64,000 bases of DNA, from contig JBBHKE010002292.1 of NCBI GenBank assembly GCA_037447655.1, forward strand, positions 114,441 through 178,440. Reading direction: 5' to 3'. Under the pieces are notes generated by a model that worked only from the letters and a program-made list of their open reading frames with translations, was not told the DNA's origin and made no database searches. This DNA comes from Zygnema cylindricum (Eukaryota; Streptophyta; Zygnematophyceae; Zygnematales; Zygnemataceae). Positions 710 to 38,262 of this stretch are shown piece after piece. The stretch's first letter is position 1. Each line of letters begins with the position of its first letter. A program made the translations under genes and the position numbers.

Positions 710-1228
710 GGTTTCATCTATATTCATTGACAGGTTCGAGCAACCAAGATCTACGGTTAAAAACGATTGCCGGGGGGGTACTTTGAATGTGACCTGATCG
801 TTGAGGTCGCCCAAAGGACAAAGCTACCCGTTTGCTGACGTCGGCCGGGAGACACGCTGTTTACGGGTGCAGACGGACGGAAAGTCGGCCTATTTAAAGG
901 TTTCCTTGCGGACAACCAAAGGTCTATAATTTTAATAAAGATGTACAAATATCCGATGAGTCTTGTCCTTGCATTTGAAGTCTTAAACCGAACTGATTTC
1001 TTTGTCGGCCGCAAATCGAAATACGTCATACGAACGTCAAAGAAGTATTAATTGGCGTTCTTTGGGACTTCGGACGACTGGCATAAGTCCAAGAAAGTAT
1101 TCCAGTCGACAAACACATGAGAAATAGCAAGTACCACAGTAAATTTAGTCCAACTGTGGTGGCTCTCGTCCTCTTTCGAGTGAATTTATAGTGCGGCCTG
1201 TACTTCTGCACTGTACTGTACTGTACTG

Positions 1229-1449
1229 TACACCGTGTATCGCTATTAGTGTTAATGTTTTTTGCGCCACTTAAAACATATTTTCTCCGTACACGTTGGT
1301 CGGATTGTGGATCTGACGGTTGCGATTGAAAAGTAAGATTCTCAGCTTCAGATTGGCAGTCTCAAACTGAAAATCGGACAAGTGTGTACGGAGAAAAGAT
1401 GTTTTAAGTGACGAAAAAACTATTAACCCTAATCGCGATACACGGTGTA
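1229..1449. mobile_element. 221-bp foldback MITE, family B, copy 1
   Basis: Long terminal inverted repeats start TACACCGTGTATCGC and end with its complement GCGATACACGGTGTA. Inner arms carry GCCACTTAAAACAT and ATGTTTTAAGTGAC beside CTCCGTACAC and GTGTACGGAG. A short unique centre (about 60 bp, with GATTCTCAGCTT) separates the arms. No open reading frame. Other copies are at 6622-7808 (interrupted), 8321-8532, 24993-25211 and 28828-29047. Confidence 0.85.
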
Positions 1450-2776
1450 GTTTTGGACTTTCCAGCGACTTGTAGGCCAGATACCGAATATATGAAACAG
1501 TATTATTTTATCCAGATTTACAATATTCAATCGAAGATTTGCACGATACTGTGTTTGATTTTTAGCGGCTGTTAGCAAGGCAAAAATCTGCAAACCGCGA
1601 AGCACCCTCCAAGCTCCAGCTTTCTTGGTGTTCTTTCCATCCGGTCAGCTGGATAGTCACGTGGTTCACATTTTTGGACAGTTAGAATCTTTCTTGGAGA
1701 TTGTCAAACATAGAATCGATATTCCGGTTCAGTTGCCTTGGATATTATTTACGTACTGTACTTGCAAAATGCCAATACGGTATACTAAATCAATAAGCCG
1801 TCAAGTCCACATTAGTATCTGTATGCCACTGCATTAAACGATATATTGTGAAGCTACGCCTGTGTACCAAACCGGTTATATGCACACTATAATGTGTTAC
1901 AATCTGAAAAATAAGCGATATTCTTATGGAATTGATTCTACCATAGCACTTGTTCTTTGTTCGAGGCACAGATGCCGTTTAGGATTTTCCGAGCATGTCG
2001 GCCAATAAGCGCCGGCATGAATTTCTTTTTTACGCCGTTCGATTGCCCTGGAAGTCGCGCGATATCACGACCGTTTCAATATGATGTACAACATTTTTAC
2101 ATCATAAGTAGGTGATGTTGCTGGCTGCAAGATATCCTGTACAATGTACTCTTGTTCAGAGATACAAAGTGAAAAGAAATGGTAGAATGAAACAGGAAGG
2201 CTCTTTTGCACCTCCACACTATTTTAGTTGAAACATTGAAAAGTTAACTCATTGAGGGCAGGATAGTTTACTGGAAAGTCTCACAGTATTCTTTTTACCT
2301 TTTTCTTTTTTTTGAAGCCAATGTTATTTTAGGATAATCTCTTCATTTCCTCTGTTCTTTACTTCTTTTACATGAGATTGCGTCATAAAAGGCTTAAGCA
2401 TCTTTTTTCCTTTTAAAATATACTTTTTAACTCTTTTTCTTTCGTTTTCTAAATTGTCAGTCTTTTAAAAAAATTGGTCTTCCAAATTGAATTTGTGCTG
2501 ACATTGTCTCCAAACCAGCTTTTAAAAATCACGTCTGTGTAATATTTAGCTTTTTAAGCTTCTCACCATTCTTCTCCCTTTTGTAACTCTGAGGACCAGT
2601 TGCTGGTTCTAATGGCTGTTCTTCTAAAGAGATTCTATTCATCTTTTATTTGACAGTTCTGTTGTGATTAACTAAGGAGGTGTCATCCATTCTTTGAGTG
2701 TTTTCAAGCGAGCTTTGTCTCTTGATTTTACACTTTTTAAGACAAGAATAATCCTTTTAAAGCAAGATTAACCTCA

Positions 2777-3027
2777 ATGGATGCCCTAATGAGTAAAAGT
2801 TTCAATATTACCAGCTCCTACTTTTCTGCAACAGCTCAATTTTCCGGCAAAACCGACAGCTCTAATGTTTGTTGTTTTAAGCGAAACATAACCAACCAAC
2901 TAGTAGTTAAACTGACAGATAAACTATCACAAGGTTATGTGCGTCAAAGACAGCGGAGAAGTTATGGAGGCTGTATGGTTAGGATGGAGGGAGGAGAAGG
3001 AAGTGGCCAAGGAAAAGTTGTTACTGG
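2777..3027 (+). pseudogene. Truncated copy of UVR/ApaG exon 1
   Basis: Codes for the first 84 residues of the UVR/ApaG protein (starts [12 protein letters not shown]) with only a few substitutions relative to the intact exon at 9186: F for L at residue 16 and KR for RQ at 35-36. The copy breaks off after VVTG and has no UVR or ApaG domain downstream, so it cannot make the full protein. Whether it is a true pseudogene or an incompletely assembled second gene is open, because the break is followed by reversed sequence and an assembly gap. Confidence 0.7.
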
Positions 3028-3231
3028 CCTGTATTTGTTTTTAGGTGAGAATTCTTAGAATTCGTTAAATTCTGAGTGGAGAAAGCGACAGCGGAGATAG
3101 TTGACGGCTAAGTTTTCAGCGTTGTAAAGTCTTTGAAAATGTAAACAAAGTTGTAGAAGAGGTCTTCAAGGTCGTGGAGGTCATTGTTGAAAAGGAACCG
3201 GTGAAGGAAGAGGAGGGAGGTAGGATTGGTA
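3028..3231. other. 204-bp mirror (reversed, not complemented) copy of 9384-9587
   Basis: Read left to right, this stretch equals 9587 down to 9384 read right to left on the same strand, base for base, with position p matching 12615-p. I compared it in 10-base blocks and found no mismatch. It covers the end of UVR/ApaG exon 1 and the start of intron 1 of copy B. It begins exactly where copy A homology ends and runs into the Ns. Antiparallel copying gives reverse complements, not mirrors, so an assembly or gap-filling error is by far the most likely origin. Confidence 0.9.
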
Positions 3232-3241
3232 NNNNNNNNNN
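3232..3241. other. Assembly gap (10 N)
   Basis: Ten consecutive N. The true distance between copy A and the sequence from 3242 on is unknown. Confidence 0.99.
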
Positions 3242-3495
3242 GGTAGCTGAATGTTACCATGTTTAAACTAAGTTAACACAATACTGTACTGGTTGTTAGG
3301 CAATTAATCGTAACTGTATAACTTTTATACACTCATTTATGTGTTACATTGAACAAGAGAATGATAATGGTAGCGCTCTTTTCACATAAAGAGTTTTTAT
3401 CCAATATTGGAAGGTGTTTTGCGACCTGCTGTTTTTTTACATGTAGATTTTGCCTTGTGGCCGTAGTGCCCGTTTAGTGTTTACTTTTGCATTCG

Positions 3496-4165
3496 TTGGT
3501 TGTTGTTTTCTTATGAAGGTTTGACGTTAAAAATTTCAAAAATCACAATAGTTGCTCACAAATTTTCAATTTTTATGAGTCAAAATTGATTTGCCGTCAT
3601 GTTGAACAAATCGTATTAAATTTGTTCCATTGTGTATTTACTCACATATTTTCAATATGTCAATGCTAATTAACGGATTGTTGGTCATGTCATAACACAA
3701 TTGAATCAAATTTGTACCATTGTAAGTCGATGGTACAATTTTGTACAAATCGAAGTAACCTCTTATGTTGAACCAAATTGATTTACTTGTTAATTTAGTT
3801 ATGTATCGTTTATATAGTTATATACAAATATTGGTTGTTGTTTTCATATGAAGGTTGACGTTAAAAATTTAAAAAATCAGAATAGTTGCTCACAAATTTT
3901 CAATTTTTATGAGTCAAAACTGATTTGCCGTCATGTTGAACAAATTGTATTGAATTTGTTCCATTGTGTATTTACTCACATATTTTCAATATGTGAATGC
4001 TAATCAACGGATTGGCGGTCATGTCGGAACACAATTGCATCAAATTTGTACCATTGTAAGTCGATGGTACAATTTTGTACAAATCGAAGTAACCTCTTGT
4101 GTTGAACCAAATTGATTTACTTGTTAATTTAGTTATGTATCGTTTATATAGTTATATTCAAATAT
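3496..4165. repeat. Tandem duplication, two copies of about 335 bp
   Basis: Copy 1 (3496-3830) and copy 2 (3831-about 4165) both start TTGGTTGTTGTTTTC and share the whole sequence, including CACAAATTTTCAATTTTTATG and TACCATTGTAAGTCGATGG, with only scattered differences. No coding potential. Copy 2 ends next to the family D element. Confidence 0.85.
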
Positions 4166-4173
4166 TTTATTTT

Positions 4174-5183
4174 GGGAATTGCTAATCGCAAAGACGATTT
4201 CTGTTGCGCGCAGGTAGTTTTTAAAAATTGTACATTTGAAGTACAGATTAGTACAAGCTACGTACACCTTTGAGTTCAAATTTGACAGTCTATCCGTCAA
4301 ACAACTTTAAATGTCGAAATATTGTAACGACGGTTAAAAAAGTGTCGCGCTTGAGAACGACGACCGTCATAAAATAAAACATTTCACACGGCCTGCCAAA
4401 GTTTACGGATAACAAAATTGCGGCGACCATATGTAAATAAAATGGCTACGGCGCAGGTAGTTTCTCATTTAACGTGAGTTCCACTGTGTGAGAGCATATA
4501 CTGACATTTAACCTAGCCGCAAAAATGGAATGTAATCGCGAAGCGTTGCGTTGACCTTAGACACAAATCAAAGGAAGACGCCATATCGATAAATAAACTC
4601 GCACGAAACGAAATATACTTCGTACAAAGATAAAAATAAAAACGTAACGGAGTAGAAATATCGATGAAACTAAATGATAAAAACGCGCCTCGTCATTTAG
4701 GAATATTGTCTTTTAAGTGCGTACTTTATTCTATCTTTATGTGGGCATTTTAATTTTTTTTGTGCGCATTTATCATGCGCGGCAAAATCGTTGAAGTGAG
4801 AAAGTACACCTTGAATCTTTATTAGATTTTATCGTCCTTAAATAGTGTAATTTATTATATTTAAGGTATCAATGTCAAAATTTTGGGGCGTCGATACAGA
4901 GTACATAAGGCTAATAACGATTCATGATGTATTTTGCGCGCAACAATTTGATTTACATGTGACTTTCGTAGTTGTGTTACAATAAACCTTGGATGACTGT
5001 TTGAATTGTTGTTTTTTTAATGACGGTCGACGTTTGCATGCGCGACACTTTTTCGCCAGTTAAAGGATTGACCGTCGAGTATGAACTCAAATGTACTTAA
5101 CTTGTACTAATTTGTACTTGAAATGTACAACTTTTGACAACTATCTGCGCGCAGCAAAAATTGTATTGCGATTAACAATTCCC
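4174..5183. mobile_element. 1,010-bp DNA transposon, family D, about 200-bp inverted repeats and 8-bp target duplication
   Basis: The element begins GGGAATTGCTAATCGCA and ends with the complementary TTGCGATTAACAATTCCC type sequence. The arms correspond over about 200 bp, including GCGCGCAG, GTACAGATTAGTACAAG and GTGTCGCGC. It is flanked by exact copies of TTTATTTT (4166-4173 and 5184-5191). A smaller inverted-repeat element (4806-4928) with family-B-like ends appears nested inside. No transposase frame is visible, so it is non-autonomous. It separates the tandem repeat from duplication copy B. Confidence 0.8.
4806..4928. mobile_element. Small family-B-like MITE nested in family D element
   Basis: Ends TACACCTTGAATCTTTATTAG and CTAATAACGATTCATGATGTA are inverted relatives of the family B termini. 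Part of the interior (GTCCTTAAATAG to GGGGCG) recurs at about 28264-28317, again followed by a family-B-like end at about 28361. Confidence 0.5.
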
Positions 5184-5304
5184 TTTATTTTAAGTACAAA
5201 TATCTTATGAGTCTTGTCCTTCTATTTGAAATTTTGAAATCTTAAACCGAACTTTTTTCTTTGTCGGCCGCAAATTGAAATACGTAATACGTACGTCCAA
5301 AAGC

Positions 5305-6420
5305 TAGTGTTGTGTATCGGTAAGGATTTGCCGATAACCGATATGGACATTTTTTCGGGTACTCGATAATCGATATATTGGTACGATATATCGCCATCGG
5401 TGTTATCGCCGATAAATAACCGATATTTATCGGTTATTATTGGCGATAACACCGATATCGATAACTATTGGCGATAATTGTACAGACCGTACAGATAAAT
5501 ATGGTGGCTGTAAATGGCGGCAGTCTGACAAATGTGTTCAGTCCATAGATGTCCCGTGTGCATATTACTCACGGTATAAACTAACGAATACTACGTACGG
5601 TACGCATCAAACGATGATGAGAAATAAATAAAATGCGTACCATACTATCTTCGCGTACAATATTTTTACAATTACGTACAGTGTCCGTCCTTGTTTGTAC
5701 ATTTTAGGGGTTTTTTACGGGATTTTTTAGGGTTTTCAAGGTACATTGTCGTACGTTCATTTATATTTTAGTACGGCTGCTGTAGATATTTCGTACTACC
5801 AGGTTTTTTAGGGTACACTTTCATACAATTTTGTACATTTATGATGAATATTCGTACTTTTTTAAAAATTTATGGATTTTCTAAGATTTCGCTTTTCGTA
5901 CGTTATTGTACATGGTTGTACTTCAAAATTTACACAAATTTTACGAAAAGTATGAAAAGACGAATACTACATAGTTTTCGTAAAAAAGTTAAAATCCGTA
6001 CGAATTGGCCATCAACGGTTCAGTCTGCTATGTTCGTCAGTTCTTTTTCTTTTTTAAATAGTTTGATTCTCGAATTTTACAATGTATTCTAATTTTTTCG
6101 TTTCGGTAGTATAGTTTTAGAACTATAAAGTATTATTTTATATTTGTCTACGTTTACGTGCTGCGCTGTCCGTAACAATTATCAGTTACATAGATACGGA
6201 ACAGATTGTTATATGTGGCATGCCATGCTATATAATGTAAATAATGTAAAACAGTATATTGTAAAGTACTATAGTATGCGTACTATATATTTTCTAAGTT
6301 ATCGCCGATATGGAATTTGTCGGTCTCCGACCGATATATCGGGACCTCTCACAGTTCGATAACCAATAACTATCGGTATCGGTATTATCGCGATAAGTTT
6401 TTTACCGATACACATCACTA
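5305..6420. mobile_element. hAT-like MITE, family A, 1.1 kb copy
   Basis: Termini TAGTGTTGTGTATCGGTA and TACCGATACACATCACTA are inverted repeats. The interior is rich in ATCGATA/CGATAAC palindromes and in GTAC motifs. Copy A of the segmental duplication has the empty site (around 1036), so insertion followed the duplication or was lost from A. Flanks CCAAAAGC and CAAAAAAA are a degraded target duplication. Other family members with exact 8-bp duplications are at 34563-34907 and 44820-45608. No transposase; internal open frames are short and unlike any family I know. Confidence 0.8.
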
Positions 6421-6830
6421 CAAAAAAATATTAATTGGCGTTCTTTGGGACTTCGGACGACTGGCATTAGTTCAAGAAAGTATTCCAGTCGACAAGCACA
6501 TGAGAAATCACAAGTACCACACTAAATCTAATCCAACTGTGATGGCTCTCGTCCTCTTTCTAGTGAATTTATAGTGCGGCCTGTACTTCTGCATTGTACT
6601 GTACAGTACAGTACTGTACTGTACACCGTGTATCGCTATTACTGTAGTGTTAATGTTTTTTTCGCCACTTAAAACATCTTTTCTCCGTACACGTTTGTCG
6701 AGTTGTGTATCTGACGGTTGGAATTGAAAGGTAAGATTCTCAGCTTCAGATTGGCAGTCTCAAAATGAAAATCGGACAAGTGTGTACGGATAAAAAATGT
6801 TTAAAGTGACGAACAAAACTATTAACCATA

Positions 6831-7115
6831 CTATGTACCTCCGGATCTAAAACTTTCGTCTTCTTCCCCACTACACGCCATTTCCTACTTCCCGCTACTA
6901 TGTACCTCCGGATCTAAAACTTTCGTCTTCTTCCCCACTACACGCCATTTCCTACTTCCCGCTACTATGTACCTCCGGATCTAAAACTTTCGTCTTCTTC
7001 CCCACTACACGCCATTTCCTACTTCCCGCTACTATGTACCTCCGGATCTAAAACTTTCGTCTTCTTCCCCACTACACGCCATTTCCTACTTCCCGCTACT
7101 ATGTACCTCCGGATC
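6831..7115. repeat. 67-bp tandem repeats at the 5' end of a retroelement fragment
   Basis: Four full copies start at 6831, 6898, 6965 and 7032, plus a partial fifth from 7099. Each begins CTATGTACCTCCGGATC and contains CTTTCGTCTTCTTCCCC. The copies are essentially identical, so the array is young or homogenised. The fifth unit leads straight into the coding remnant. Confidence 0.9.
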
Positions 7116-7523
7116 CGGCCTGCGGCCGCTTCCAACCGCACGAACACCGGCAAAACCATAGCTCGACATGTGGGCGTGGCCGCACGCGACGCGGCTAGGA
7201 GGAAGGAGCGTGATTATGCCCATCGCGATGCTATGGATGGTTTCATTCCGATGGCGGTGGAGATATTTGGTTGTTTGGGTGTGGCTTTGGACGAGTTTCT
7301 CCGTGCTTGTGGTCGGCGTTCGTTTGAGCGGCGGGGACCTGGGAGCCCTTCAGTTTCAGTACTTACTTCTTTTTACCGTCAACGTTTATCAGTGGCCCTT
7401 CAGCGAGTGCAGGCTTCTATCCTCCTTGGATCGTCTATTGCGGCTATGGATCGTCGACGTGTCCCGGAACTCCCGCCTCGTGCTCCTCCGGGGTTCGGGG
7501 ACTTACGTGGTTGCTTTGCATAG
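7101..7523 (+). pseudogene. C-terminal remnant of a non-LTR retrotransposon ORF2
   Basis: An open frame of 140 codons with the look of the region downstream of reverse transcriptase in plant and algal LINE-type elements: an RRKERDYAHR basic stretch, then FIPMAVEIFGCLG and later SVLTSFYRQRLSVALQRVQAS. No polymerase motif is present, so the element is 5'-truncated. The sequence after it (to 7790) behaves like a 3' UTR with AATAAAG and a terminal C/T run. It is GC-richer than its surroundings, as expected for a recent insertion. The family assignment is from memory of such tails and not from a search. Confidence 0.55.
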
Positions 7524-7790
7524 ATTTTTAGTTATGTTAGGGTTTTGTTGTTAGGTGTTAGCTTTTTCTTTTGGTGTTTCGTTTGTTGTTTTTTGCTTTT
7601 TTGGGTGTTTTCCGTCTACTAGTTGTCATTTTGTGGTTTCGTTGCTTTTGCCTTGCTTATCGTTTTTGTTTTTTCCCCCAACATATAGTTTTTCAATTTT
7701 TGCCGTGCTACTTCTCTTTTGTTCCCCATGAACTTAGATGGTTTACCATCGCGCTTTTTAATAAAGTCAGCCCCCCTTTTTTTTTTTATA
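7524..7790 (+). mobile_element. Retrotransposon 3' UTR and tail
   Basis: TG-rich sequence ending in TTGTTCCCCATGAACTTAG, then AGATGGTTTACC, then TTTAATAAAGTC and a homopolymer C/T run. A related tail occurs at 56728-56830, which shows this is a dispersed element 3' end. It interrupts family B MITE copy 2. Confidence 0.65.
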
Positions 7791-8320
7791 ATAGCGATAC
7801 ACGGTGTAGTTTTGGACTTTTCCAGCGACTTGTAGGCCAGTTACCGAATATACGAAACAGTATTATTTTATCCAGATTTACAATCCTCCGTAGAAGATTT
7901 GCGCGATACTGTGTTTGATTTCCAGCGTCTGTCAGCGAGGCAAAAATCTGCAAACCGCGAAGCACCCTCCAAGCTCCAGCTTTCTTGGTGTTCTTTCCAT
8001 CCGGTCAGCTGGATAGTCACGTGGTTCACAATTTTGGACAGTTAGAATCTTTTTTGGAGATTGTGGAACACAGAATCGATATTTCGGTCCAATTGCCTTG
8101 GATATTATTACGTACTGTACTTGCAAAAAATACCAATACCGAATTGATTCTACCATAGCACTTGTTCTTTTTTCGAGGCACAGATGCCGTTCAGGATTTT
8201 CCGAGCATGTCGGCCAATAAGCGCCGGCGTGAATTTCTTTCTTACGCCGTTCGATTGCCCGGGAAGTCGCGCGATTTCACGACCGTTTCATTATGATGTA
8301 CTTCAATTTTGCATCATAAG

Positions 8321-8532
8321 CACCACAGCGAATCGTTATTAGCGTCAAGATTTTTTTCGCCACTTAAAACATATTTTCTCCGTACACACTTGTCGGATTT
8401 TGGATCTGACGGTTGCGATTGAAATGTAAGATTCTCAGCTTCCGATTGGCCGTCTCAAAATGAAATCCAACAAGTGTGTACGGAGAAAAGATGTTTTAAG
8501 TGGCGAAAAAAACCTTGACGCTAGTAACGATT
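8321..8532. mobile_element. Family B foldback MITE, copy 3, with 12-bp target duplication
   Basis: Begins CACCACAGCGAATCG and ends CGCTAGTAACGATT, with arms CTCCGTACACACTTGTC and GTGTGTACGGAG. Flanked by TTGCATCATAAG (8309-8320) and TTACATCATAAG (8533-8544), 11 of 12 identical. Copy A has a single CATCATAAG at the corresponding place near 2101. The long arms and 9-12-bp duplication suggest a Mutator-like (MULE) origin; this is inference. Confidence 0.75.
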
Positions 8533-9185
8533 TTACATCATAAGTAGGTGATGTTGCTGGCTGCAGGATATCCTGTACAATGTGCACTTGTTCAGAGACA
8601 TAAAGTGGAAACAAATGGTAGAGTGAACCTGGAAGGCTCTTCTGCACCTCCACACTATTTTAAGTTAACTCATTGAGGGAAGGACAGTTTACTGGAAAGT
8701 TTCACAGTGTTCTTTTACTTTTTCTTTTTTTTGAAGCCAATGTTATTTTAGGATAATCTCTTCATTTCCTCTGTTCTTTTACATGAGATTGCGTCATAAA
8801 TGACTTAAGCATCTTTCGTTCTTTTAAAATATACGTTTTAACTCTTTTTGTTTCGTTTTCCAAATTGTCAGTCTTTTAAAAAAATTGGTCTTCCAAATTG
8901 AATTTGTGCTGACATTGTTTCCAAACCAGCTTTTACAAATCATGTCAGTGTAATATTTAGTTTTTTAAGCTTCTCACCATTCTTCTCCTTTTTGTAACTC
9001 TGAGGACCAGTTGCTGGTTCTAATGGCTGTTCTTCTAAAGAGATTCTATTCATCTTTCATTTGACAGCTCTGTTGAGACTAACAAAGGAGGTGTCATCCA
9101 TTCTTTGAGTGTTTTCAAGCGAGCTTTGTCTCGATTTTACACTTTTTAAGACAAGAATAATCCTTTTAAAGCAAGATTAACCTCA

Positions 9186-12100
9186 ATGGATGCCCTAATG
9201 AGTAAAAGTTTCAATATTACCAGCTCCTACCTTTCTGCAACAGCTCAATTTTCCGGCAAAACCGACAGCTCTAATGTTTGTTGTTTTAGGCAAAACATAA
9301 CCAACCAATTAGTAGTTAAACTGACAGATAAACTATCACAAGGTTATGTGCGTCAAAGACAGCGGAGAAGTTATGGAGGCTGTATGGTTAGGATGGAGGG
9401 AGGAGAAGGAAGTGGCCAAGGAAAAGTTGTTACTGGAGGTGCTGGAACTTCTGGAGAAGATGTTGAAACAAATGTAAAAGTTTCTGAAATGTTGCGACTT
9501 TTGAATCGGCAGTTGATAGAGGCGACAGCGAAAGAGGTGAGTCTTAAATTGCTTAAGATTCTTAAGAGTGGATTTTTGTTTATGTCCTTGTTTCTGTTAT
9601 TCTATCATTCTTGATCAGCTAATTTTGTAGTTCAAATTTGTGAAAGCGATTGGAGACTTATTTGTGGTTTCCCCGCACTAAATGCGTACTGTATGGTTTT
9701 TTTTAGTATAACACACGTATAGCATAGGGAAATCTCATGTAGCGTTTCCGGTCGTTTTCAAACATTTGAGTTTGTTAGTACCCATATTTCTGTTATCATT
9801 CTTGTTAATATCTGTGGATTTTAAGCAAAGAGAACGTCCGTAGTAGATATAATGTGATTATTTCTTAAGTATTGCTGAGGCTTATGTCCTTTAGGCAATC
9901 GTTCAACTGCTGCAGCATGTGTTAGAAATTTATAAGGGAATTTTTGGTACATCGTAATTGGCGTTACTTGTACAGTAGTCATAATATTTGTGTAAATAAT
10001 TGAACGATTTTGTAGAATATGCACATTTTCCTGTATGGTGTTCGGTGATCACTAGCCAGTAAGCCAGTAATAGTGTATGTGTAATCACCTTTTTATGATT
10101 GCTGCTGGTTTTTTGTACTATTTACGCATATATATGCACACACATTTACACACTGAAGTATGTGTGTGTATGTCATTCATGGTCGTCTGCTGGTTCCTGG
10201 AGGATAAGTAAACCTAAGTGTATACTGTTTATTGTCAACTGGAGAGCGCAAATAAGAGTAGTGTAGCCAATACTGCGCAAACTTTGCTTGTTTTTGAACT
10301 CAGAATGGATAATCCCTTTTTTTTTTCTTTCAAGTTTTGAGTAGTTCTGCATTTCTTTCTTAGCTCATTTGACTTCTCTTTGTCTTTCCCTTTTAGTGAT
10401 TATAGCCTGTGTTCGCTTCAGTCACCATTTGGCCCTTTCTATGGTGCCACCTGTCAGTTTACAGGAAACTGAGGCATTTTTCCGGGCTTTTTTTTGAATT
10501 CTGACACAGGATTACACTGAAGCTGCAAAAGTTCGTGATTTGATGAAGTCTCTGGAAGAAAAGGATCCAGCATTGCAACTCCGAAAGCTGCTTTCTCAAG
10601 CTATTGCAGAGGAGCGATACGCTGTAAGTATTATTGATTCAAAAAGAAATGACAACTTCACTACACTGCCCATCTCTATGAGAGTTAATCGCATACGAGT
10701 GCATGTTTTTTTGAAAAAATCATAAGTTAGAGTTAAGGAAGTTGATTAAGTGGCAATAATGAGCCACGTGTTGAAACATAGTTTTGTGTAGGTAATTTTT
10801 AAAAAGTGCGAACGCTTACAATTTATTAAGCTGAATGGTGATGGGCAGTGTAGTGAAACTGGTAATTTTTTAGGCTCTGGTGGCTCCTGCTTTACCTGCG
10901 ATGAAGAGCGAGTTAATCCTCATTGTATTGATACTTTTAAATTAATAAATAGTCCACACTATTGGTGGAGTGTAGCTGAAATCTGTATTTCCTTTTTGCC
11001 GTTTTCATATATTTCAATGTGTCAATAGTTTCTATTTAGTAATTTCAATGGGACAGTCTAAGGTGTTTAATCTCTGAACATGTGTCGTAGATCATATTGG
11101 TTTTGAAGTACTTAATAATTTGGAAACCGGAACTAAATAAAGATTGTAATAGAAATTGTATGTATAGTATTTTGTTCCTCAAGTGGCCTGTTGAGTGGGT
11201 CTTTTGGGAAGACAGGATGCAGCTCAATATCGGGATAAGTTGAGGCAAATTGCTCCCCCAGAAGTCGAGGAACCAAAATCAGTTCCTAGATGTAATAGTA
11301 ACACCGTGACAAAGGTAAAACTTTCTGATCCCGACTTTAATGCTTTGTTTAGCATTTTGAACTTACCTGGACGTTTTTAAACATAAGGTTGTATTAGGTC
11401 GTGTCTTTTCTGTCTGACTTTTTTCTTTTTTTTGCTGGTGTCCTGCAATTCTTATATTTGATGGCATGGTCAATATGCCTACAAAGGTCAGGATAATTCT
11501 TGAAGTTATGGTAATGATTAGATTCAGTCTTGCAAATAATTCTAGAATTGTTTATTGTTATGTCTCACTGTTTTTGGTATGTATCATCATGTTGCCAATA
11601 TCATTAGGTCAAGAGAACAAGCATATGTTTATGTAAAAGTTGGAATAAATCTTATGTTACTAATTTTCAGGGCATTTTTTGTGCTATATGGGTTTTAGGG
11701 CGTGAGAGTGATTGTTCGTAGCATTTACGTTAGGGATCGGAGCACCCCTTCAAGACAACAATTTTTCTTCGCTTATCGAGTTAGAGTCTCCAATGAGGGC
11801 ACTCGACCTGTCCAGCTTTTGAATCGCCATTGGGTGATTACCGACGCAAATGGTCGAGTAGAAGAAGTGAGGTGAGTGCCTCGTGAATTACTATTAGAGT
11901 AAAGAAATTATTCGAGTGGGTTTTTTTAGCTATTAATCTTGATTGATCTTGATCTTGATTGAGGTAAGAGAGAATTGAACGATTATTGACCGCTTGACGT
12001 ATTAGTGTTATAAACAGAAAATCAGTGTAGTTAACGCTATTTGATGGTCAGAGGCCAAAAAGGACCAACACTGAATCAGCGTTTGGAACACTAATAATGG

Positions 12101-30743: not shown

Positions 30744-32957
30744 ATGGCTTCCGGGAATGAAGCACTGCGAGAGAGAATAGCAAAGTTAGAGCGTCTGGCA
30801 ATGCTTCAAAATACTCCAACAAGCCTTTGCACTACAAAAAAAATGGCGCAGGTAAATACTTTACGTATTTAACCATTTTAATATGTAGTCCATTCGTTTT
30901 CCTATTGCTATTCCTATTCATGTCTATATTTATAATTGTATATCTCTCCCTGTGCCTCTCCCTCTCTCTCTCTCTCCCTCTCACTCTCTCTCTCTCTCTC
31001 TCTCTCTCCCTCTCCCTCACACTCTCCCTCTGTTGATCTTCCAATTTTTTAATATAGAGTTTTCTTTATTCATTTTTGTATATTATTGGATTCAGTTTTG
31101 GAATTCAAACTGGATAGTTAAACTGGATAGTTTTTCCTTTTTTTTTTTTAGAAAAGGTCCCTCTTTTTTTATGTTCCAATCTATCCCATTATTGTCACAT
31201 TCCTTTTAAAAAAAAAAAAGAAAAAACCTTTGACCTCTTTTGACTTTCCAAAGTTTGTTTCTAAGAAAAAAACAAAAAAGTTCTGCTTTTCCTTTTCTCT
31301 CTCGAAGCTCTCGCCTCTGCTGTCCATCCTCTCTCGCGCTCCCTTCCCCTCTCATCCCTCTCTCCCTCTCCTCTCCTCTCCCCCTCTTCTCCCCCCTCCC
31401 CTTCCCCCTCTCTCTCCTGGCCCTCTCCCTCTTTTCTGCTGCGCCACTCTTCTCTCTCTCTCCTGCTCCCTTCCTTTGACCCTCCCTTTCCCTTCCCCTC
31501 TCCCTTCTCCCATATCCCCTTCCGCTCCCTCCACCATGCCCTGTTTCGTCCTCTACCCTCCCCCCCTCTCTCTCTCTCTCTCTCATCCCCCCTCCCTATT
31601 GCTCTCCTTCTCCCCACAGGATTCCGATGACCATTCTGTTTCTCGCCACCGTCGCCATCCTGGCGAACTCCATGGCCCTCACTCCCTCCCTCCTCCCCCT
31701 CCCTCCAATCCCAAGTCCAGAGCTCCTCCCTCTTCTCATTCCCCTGGTGTCCTTATCCGAATGGGAGCCTCTCCCGCTCCCTCTCCCTCCTGTGGCCATC
31801 CTCCTTGGATGATCACCGAAAACCTTATTTGCTGCAACCCTAACTCTAATTCTAACCCTAATCTTAATCCTATCCTTAACTCCAATCCCAACTCCAACAT
31901 TAACTCCAACCCTAACTCTAACTCTAACCCTAATCCCAATTCTAATTCTTCAAATTACCCTACCCTTAACCTTAACCCTAATTTTGCGAATGGGGGAGTT
32001 GTTAGCACTTCCCACCTTCTTCAAGAACTGGAAATGACACGGAGACGGAGCATAGAATTGGAGGAATTAGTTAAAAAAGCCGAACACGAAGCCGCGTTGT
32101 TACGGGCCGATAAAGCTTGTATGGTCCAAGCTTTGGATTACACTCGACAGGACAACAACTCCTCTTTACAGTTTTTGGTGGGAGAGGAGGCCGAGTGTAT
32201 AGTCGAATTAGTGAGGAGCGAGAATATGGAGTTACTCGAAATGGTCGAGGAACAACATTCTCTTTTGGCCCAACAACAAGCAAGAGCAAGTAGTGCCGAA
32301 AGAGAGGTACATAGGTTACACGACGAAGTCGAAATAATGAAATCGGCGTTACAAGGGGCGGATGAGAGGACGGAGGTTTTATCACAAAGGGCAGAAGCTG
32401 CCGAAAGACTTCTCGCAATGTTGCTAAAAATGACCAAGGAAGAAAGTCTGAACGGAAATCAGAACGGAAGTCAAGATTCTGTAGGAAGGAACGGGTTTTC
32501 GGTGGTTTTCCCGTCTCTCTCCTCTCTTCCTCCTCTCCCGCCTCTCCCACCTCTCCCTCAGCTTCCTCCGAATGTCTCTAATTCCTCTCACTCTGGTCCC
32601 CTTCCTGCTGTTTCTCCTCCTCCGTCTCCTCTGGAAGTGGGAGGGAAGATGGAGGAAGTCCAGAACTCCTCTCAGGGAACTCCTCCTCCTCCTCCTTCCT
32701 TATCAGCTATTGGGAGAGTCCTAGGGCAAGGTATTTTGACAGGAGAAGATAGCCCTAAAGGACAAAAATCTCCTTCGCAGAAAATATTACAGCAACAACA
32801 ACAACTCCTATTGGCCCTTTTGCAGAAAGGGAATAATTTGGAGGAGGATAGGAGACAGATGAGTCACTGGTCTATCCATGTGGCGTCTTTAGTGACTACT
32901 GCCGCAGCAACAGTTGTCGTGACAGTCATGGTTTTGAATTATCGGAGAAGGTCGTAA
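30744..32957 (+). CDS. Tail-anchored coiled-coil protein (481 aa, 2 exons)
   Basis: Exons 30744-30851 and 31620-32957, joined in phase 0 across an intron consisting largely of CT repeats. The start is the first ATG (MASGNEALRERIAKLERLA). After a Pro/Ser-rich stretch (about 46-100) comes an Asn-rich low-complexity segment (109-157). A long coiled coil follows (about 166-312: SHLLQELEMTRRRSIELEEL, then RASSAEREVHRLHDEV), then Pro-rich and Gln-rich linkers. The end is a hydrophobic segment at about 454-475 (VASLVTTAAATVVVTVMVL) with the short basic tail NYRRRS. That is the layout of a C-terminal tail anchor, and the basic tail favours mitochondria or peroxisomes. Plant PMD1/PMD2 division factors share this architecture, but I see no sequence match firm enough to name it. 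Confidence 0.8.
30950..31619. repeat. CT-rich microsatellites filling the coiled-coil gene intron
   Basis: (CT)n, (CTCTCC)n and poly-pyrimidine blocks at 30950-31035 and 31300-31615, on the sense strand directly before the CCCCACAG acceptor. Open frames here on either strand are compositional. Confidence 0.85.
31836..31985 (+). repeat. Telomere-like CCCTAA hexamer array inside a coding exon
   Basis: About 25 degenerate hexamers of the kind AACCCT, AACTCT, AATCCC, AATTCT follow each other in frame, including several perfect AACCCT/CCCTAA units. Translated, they give alternating Asn with Pro, Ser, Leu or Ile. The hexamer period equals two codons, so length changes by whole units keep the frame open. 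Confidence 0.85.
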
Positions 32958-36960: not shown

Positions 36961-37985
36961 AGCAAAGGCACCGAGTCCATACGCCAAAATTAGGTTATTC
37001 CTCCGACTAGACATTTTTCCCTTTTAACAGAACTTTTTGATTCTGATCACAACTTCACAAAGAAATAAAAAGAACAAAATTTGGAAATTACAGTCAAAAA
37101 ATCTTTCATTTGCAGCTTAACTTATTGCATCAACTTATCTCATTATAAGTCATTTTAACAAACATTATCTTTTCAAAAGTGATCTAATCAAGATTTAATC
37201 AAAGTTATTTTGATTATACTTTGACATATTACTACTTCTCAATCATGTTATGAGTTTAGTAAAACACCTGTTTTTCTTTCTTGCACATGATATACTTGGT
37301 AACTTAATCTATTTTTTTGTTTTTTTTATTATTTACTTCATTGATACAACCTTATTGACACATATTTACTTCATTGAATAAATGCTCTATTGGAAAAAAA
37401 ATGAAGGACTAGTCTTTCTTTAAATTGGTTCCTTGAAATGACCTTCCTTGAGTTGTTACGTTTTCTTCAACTTTTTGATGAGTGAAAACATTTGTCTTGA
37501 TCCTATTCACTTTAGAATTTCTTCATGAAACTTAATTTGCAATTATCTTCTTTGCTGATAAAAATCTTCTGATAAATTTCTGATTATTTTTGATTATTTA
37601 TTAGTTACTTTTTCCTTACCTAGTTTCAAAAAGCCTCAAACATGTCACTGGAGTAACTGTTGTGTTGTCAAAATAAAATACGACCTCCTAGGGTAAGAAA
37701 TTTCAAATTTGCCCTAATGTTGAGTCACTCAGTGTAAACCGTACAGTTTTTCAAAAACCGCAAGTAAAATTAGCCAAATACCTGTACGGAATTGTACGAT
37801 TGGCCCTCAAAGCGGGGGTAAAACTATTGTCGACGCTTTACCCTAGTATTCAAAGGTAAATCGTACAGTTTGTACTGTTTTTTTGGTTACATTTACGTAC
37901 AGTTTGCCTTAAAATGTACGGTTCACCTCAACATAAGGGCAAAAAATTTCAATGCAATTCTCGTTTCTCAATGTTGGTTCGAAGC

Positions 37986-38262
37986 ATAGTTCAAAAGTAG
38001 GCGTTTTTATGGTAGGCGTTTGGTCGGCGCCTTTATCGTAAGTTGTGTTATGGGCTTTTCATGTGATCTTCTTAAATCGCTACTTTGATCAGCGACCGTC
38101 CGATCGTCCGAATCTGACCGTGTAAAACAAATTATTTGGTCCGAATGTTTTAATTGGTCCAATTTTTGGTCCGAATGTTTTAATTGGTCCGAATAGGTCC
38201 GAATACAATATGGTTCTTAAGGTCATATTGTATGGGCCTACTTTCACCTACTTTTGAACTAT
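37986..38262. mobile_element. Family C inverted-repeat element, copy 2
   Basis: Reverse complement of 431-709 along its whole length, with termini ATAGTTCAAAAGTAGG and CTACTTTTGAACTAT. Flanks TTCGAA and TTCTAA suggest a decayed target duplication. Confidence 0.8.

Follow-up and report, generated by a model that had tools for sequence, protein, structure and literature searches.

Exact mirror sequences on both sides of an assembly gap in Zygnema cylindricum, very probably a gap-closing artefact

Two blocks of ordinary sequence written backwards on the same strand, reversed and not complemented, flank the sole gap of the analysed window, a stretch of 64,000 nucleotides, and mirrors of comparable strength occur nowhere else in it. 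These blocks almost certainly do not exist in the actual DNA. Very probably they are an artefact of assembly, produced when a gap-closing step wrote partial extensions backwards.

The left mirror patch (3028-3231) is the segment 9384-9587 in reversed, uncomplemented form. An earlier note on this DNA had proposed this relation, and the base-by-base comparison on the same strand (position p against position 12615-p) bore it out without a mismatch, 204 of 204 bases being identical. The limits that had been proposed for the patch were also confirmed: it starts directly after the end of duplication copy A (3027) and finishes at a run of ten Ns (3232-3241), which is the only N-run of the window, with no base intervening between 3231 and the first N. 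Upstream of the patch, all five bases at 3023-3027 mismatch the mirror of copy B. The number of 204-base mirrors expected by chance at the composition of the window is about 10^-108. Since the longest mirrors in simulated windows (n = 20, first-order Markov) reach only 17-21 bases, a chance origin was rejected. The source of the patch on the + strand, either copy B at 9384-9587 or an identical copy of it, lies within the open reading frame 9150-9611, for which no Pfam hit was obtained. This segment apparently spans the end of an exon and the start of an intron, with the boundary placed by eye at a GT near 9537.

When the left patch is un-reversed, it overlaps the end of the left contig by 53 bases (2975-3027) and continues with 151 bases equal to copy B at 9437-9587. 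The overlap amounts to 0 bases when the patch is taken as written, 2 when it is complemented and 0 when it is reverse-complemented. This shows that the source segment straddles precisely the position at which copy A breaks off. That the overlap is as long as 53 bases results in part from the identity of copies A and B in that stretch, and because of the same identity the terminal 53 bases of copy A (2975-3027) are themselves mirrored at 3179-3231. As written, 2975-3231 contains stops in all three forward reading frames; with the patch un-reversed, the frame of copy B remains open.

BLAST aligned copy A (943-3027) in pieces to copy B (5194-9436). Copy B carries two insertions that are absent from A, at about 5301-6420 and about 6831-7788, and approximately 150 bases of copy A (1779-1928) are absent from B. 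Over 2095-3027 the copies differ by 39 substitutions in 906 aligned bases, five of the differing positions falling around 2647-2673. The earlier note had stressed that the patch matches copy B perfectly despite the divergence of A and B. The divergence itself stands; however, the last 127 bases of copy A, at the end of the left contig (2901-3027, + strand), are already an exact direct repeat of 9310-9436 (BLAST), and the perfect match to B therefore starts upstream of the patch. At the average divergence of the copies (39/906), 127 identical bases at the end of A have a probability of 0.0037, and the 151 identical bases by which the left patch extends beyond it have a probability of about 0.0013. 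Reads of copy B may have supplied the end of A during assembly, or the exon may be conserved. The 151 added bases may likewise come from B-derived reads or reflect local conservation.

The insertions of copy B have features of their own. The region 6829-7115, at one end of the insertion reaching about 7788, is a perfect tandem array of 4.3 copies of a 67-base unit, and the open frame 6918-7520 in the same insertion has no Pfam match. The insertion at about 5305-6420 has near-complementary ends (TAGTGTTGTGTATCGGTAA / TTACCGATACACATCACTA) and tentatively resembles a hAT-type element. A 28-base pattern from copy A gave 0 matches in a prokaryote contig collection, a collection that may exclude the window's own genome.

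A second mirror, overlooked in the earlier note, lies across the gap. The right patch (3242-3347) starts at the first base past the N-run and is 3628-3733 reversed and uncomplemented, with 106 of 106 bases identical in the exact-match search; when the comparison is extended to 3351, 109 of 110 bases match. Counting 3348 as the first base of the right contig, the patch corresponds to its bases 281-386 in reverse. The source on the + strand (3628-3733, or an identical copy) lies in the first unit of a tandem duplication beside the gap (3496-4166), the 334-base units of which are 95% alike, with 15 differences in 336 aligned bases. Next to this duplication, the region 4174-5183 is bounded by imperfect inverted ends, one 270 bases long and the other 238, that are 70% alike, as in a transposon with long inverted termini. 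The right patch shares no overlap with the start of the right contig in any of the four orientations. Between the two patches the overlap never exceeds 4 bases, whatever the orientation, and they therefore do not close the gap. Across both patches there are 0 mismatches in 310 bases, whereas copies A and B differ at 39 of 906 aligned bases and the tandem units at 15 of 336.

The window was searched for exact matches under four relations, namely direct, reverse complement, mirror and plain complement. Exact mirrors of at least 20 bases comprised 551 matches, grouped as 48 region pairs. Among the 45 pairs listed, 5 were the gap flanks or derived from them and 40 were simple repeats, such as TC runs; the other 3 pairs measured at most 21 bases each. 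The low-complexity mirrors were rejected as equivalents of the gap-flank patches, as those 40 pairs are simple repeats, unlike the patches. The complexity cut used for one filtered mirror list penalises length and dropped the 204-base mirror, which is retained in the unfiltered lists. When the window was compared by dust-filtered BLAST with its own mirrored text, the hits were the two mirrors at the gap, one secondary match each at the tandem partner (3958-4067) and at the end of copy A (2975-3027), and one weak self-mirror at 31847-31946 with 70% identity. The same search against the plain complement of the window gave no matches.

A gap-closing origin calls for anomalous sequence adjoining the gap, and such sequence is found on both sides of it (3231, N at 3232-3241, 3242). 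It also calls for a patch that, once oriented, overlaps the end of its contig, and this is found on the left (53 bases) and not on the right (0 bases). In the proposed sequence of events, a gap-closing step would extend both contigs into the gap and the extensions would fail to meet. Each extension would then be entered in the scaffold letter-reversed but uncomplemented, the two being separated by a spacer of ten Ns. On the left, the extension would consist of a seed, namely the terminal 53 bases of the contig, followed by 151 copy B-like bases, which written backwards would give 3028-3231. For the right patch, the source would be either the right contig at its bases 281-386 or a copy, located elsewhere, that is identical to them; the right extension may have begun inside the contig, or may have used reads from such a copy. 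The account of the right patch thus stays partial, as this patch is an internal piece of the contig and seed plus extension covers the left side only. A possible route would be a traceback or path string left in its backward order, or a record from the minus strand that was reversed but not complemented. We infer both the gap-closing program as the agent and the route of the reversal. The earlier note had already suggested that gap filling or scaffolding wrote the sequence reversed without complementing; this reading is supported, though not proven, by the second exact mirror across the gap, by the finding of no mirror of mixed sequence and similar strength elsewhere in the 64 kb, and by the way in which the left patch, solely when un-reversed, dovetails over 53 bases with the left contig.

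The reversal may also have preceded this step. In the main rival reading, reads were reversed without complementing before assembly or before gap filling, for example during conversion of mate-pair orientation, and these reads, or small contigs of this kind, were then set beside the gap. Both sides of the gap would then likewise show exact reversed text, and the patch lengths of 204 and 106 bases are about those of a read to a small contig. However, such reads need an overlap in order to be joined, and the patches as written share 0 bases with the adjoining contigs; moreover, the rest of the window contains nothing of the kind, and we regard this origin as unlikely. That a single place is affected in 64 kb would agree with a one-off error in the record after assembly, in which manual patching, file conversion or a sequence edit reversed the text beside the gap. 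Under such an error the whole block 3028-3347 could have been reversed as a single unit, since such a reversal treats the two patches and the spacer symmetrically. A single reversed block, though, would carry the segment overlapping copy A to the opposite side of the gap, away from copy A, which makes reversal as one unit less likely, and a record error of any of these kinds is in our estimation quite improbable.

The text as it reads is the sole support for the reading in which two mirror copies of recent origin are truly present on the same strand of the chromosome. Two events would have had to end at opposite edges of one N gap with zero divergence in 310 bases, and we know of no copying process that yields reversed, uncomplemented DNA. 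If true, such copies would imply an unknown parallel-orientation copying of DNA, and we give this reading practically no weight. Backward-written extensions from a gap-closing step are the explanation that we prefer.

The mirrors at the gap have no biological meaning in themselves; what they provide is a clean marker of faulty assembly. Aligners compare direct and reverse-complement orientations only, and ordinary alignment therefore does not look for an error of this type. Checking the flanks of N gaps for mirrors of the neighbouring sequence would be cheap and would flag affected assemblies. In the present case the error conceals the continuation of copy A past 3027, and a gene model at copy A could appear truncated because of it. 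The next exon of copy B, 10510-10620, contains a UVR motif (PF02151, E 5.9e-06, Pfam), so the duplicated gene interrupted at the gap probably encodes a UVR-motif protein. Elsewhere in the window, an exon of 121 residues encodes a beta-ketoacyl synthase domain, which was confirmed by Pfam. A protein search with this exon, in which candidates were limited to proteins of similar length, gave 347 matches; among the best 120 of the 347, identity was at most 76% and no near-identical protein was present. The named organisms among the matches listed are land plants, and a green-plant lineage is likely. Another open frame gave no match at E <= 0.001 in the protein search. An inverted repeat of 279 bases (435-713 and 37982-38260), 94% alike, is probably a dispersed element.

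Mirror symmetry on the same strand is also a property of the repeats that form H-DNA (triplex). H-DNA mirror repeats are purine-pyrimidine tracts that are symmetric about a near centre. In contrast, the patches described here are of mixed sequence and terminate at a gap, and their sources lie at distances of about 6.4 kb and 0.3 kb. The longest pure purine or pyrimidine run measures 18 bases in the left patch and 5 in the right. An H-DNA mirror repeat was rejected, since purine fractions of 0.62 (left) and 0.47 (right) do not make a homopurine-homopyrimidine tract.

Judged by titles and listings in the open-access literature, no report of a reversed, uncomplemented gap-closing error was recognised. 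Walking into gaps from contig ends is exemplified by Meraculous, in which k-mer walks start from flanking seeds (PMC3158087); in part of its description, no mention was found of 10-N gaps or of reversed output, and nothing ties this program to the present assembly. The arrangement described here resembles a gap-closing misassembly in that a short stretch of incorrect sequence sits at a gap in the scaffold, the extension from the two sides is partial and an N spacer remains. The usual errors of gap closing are wrong copies, wrong lengths and inversions, the last of which appear as the reverse complement. The patches at this gap differ from all of these in being reversed without having been complemented.
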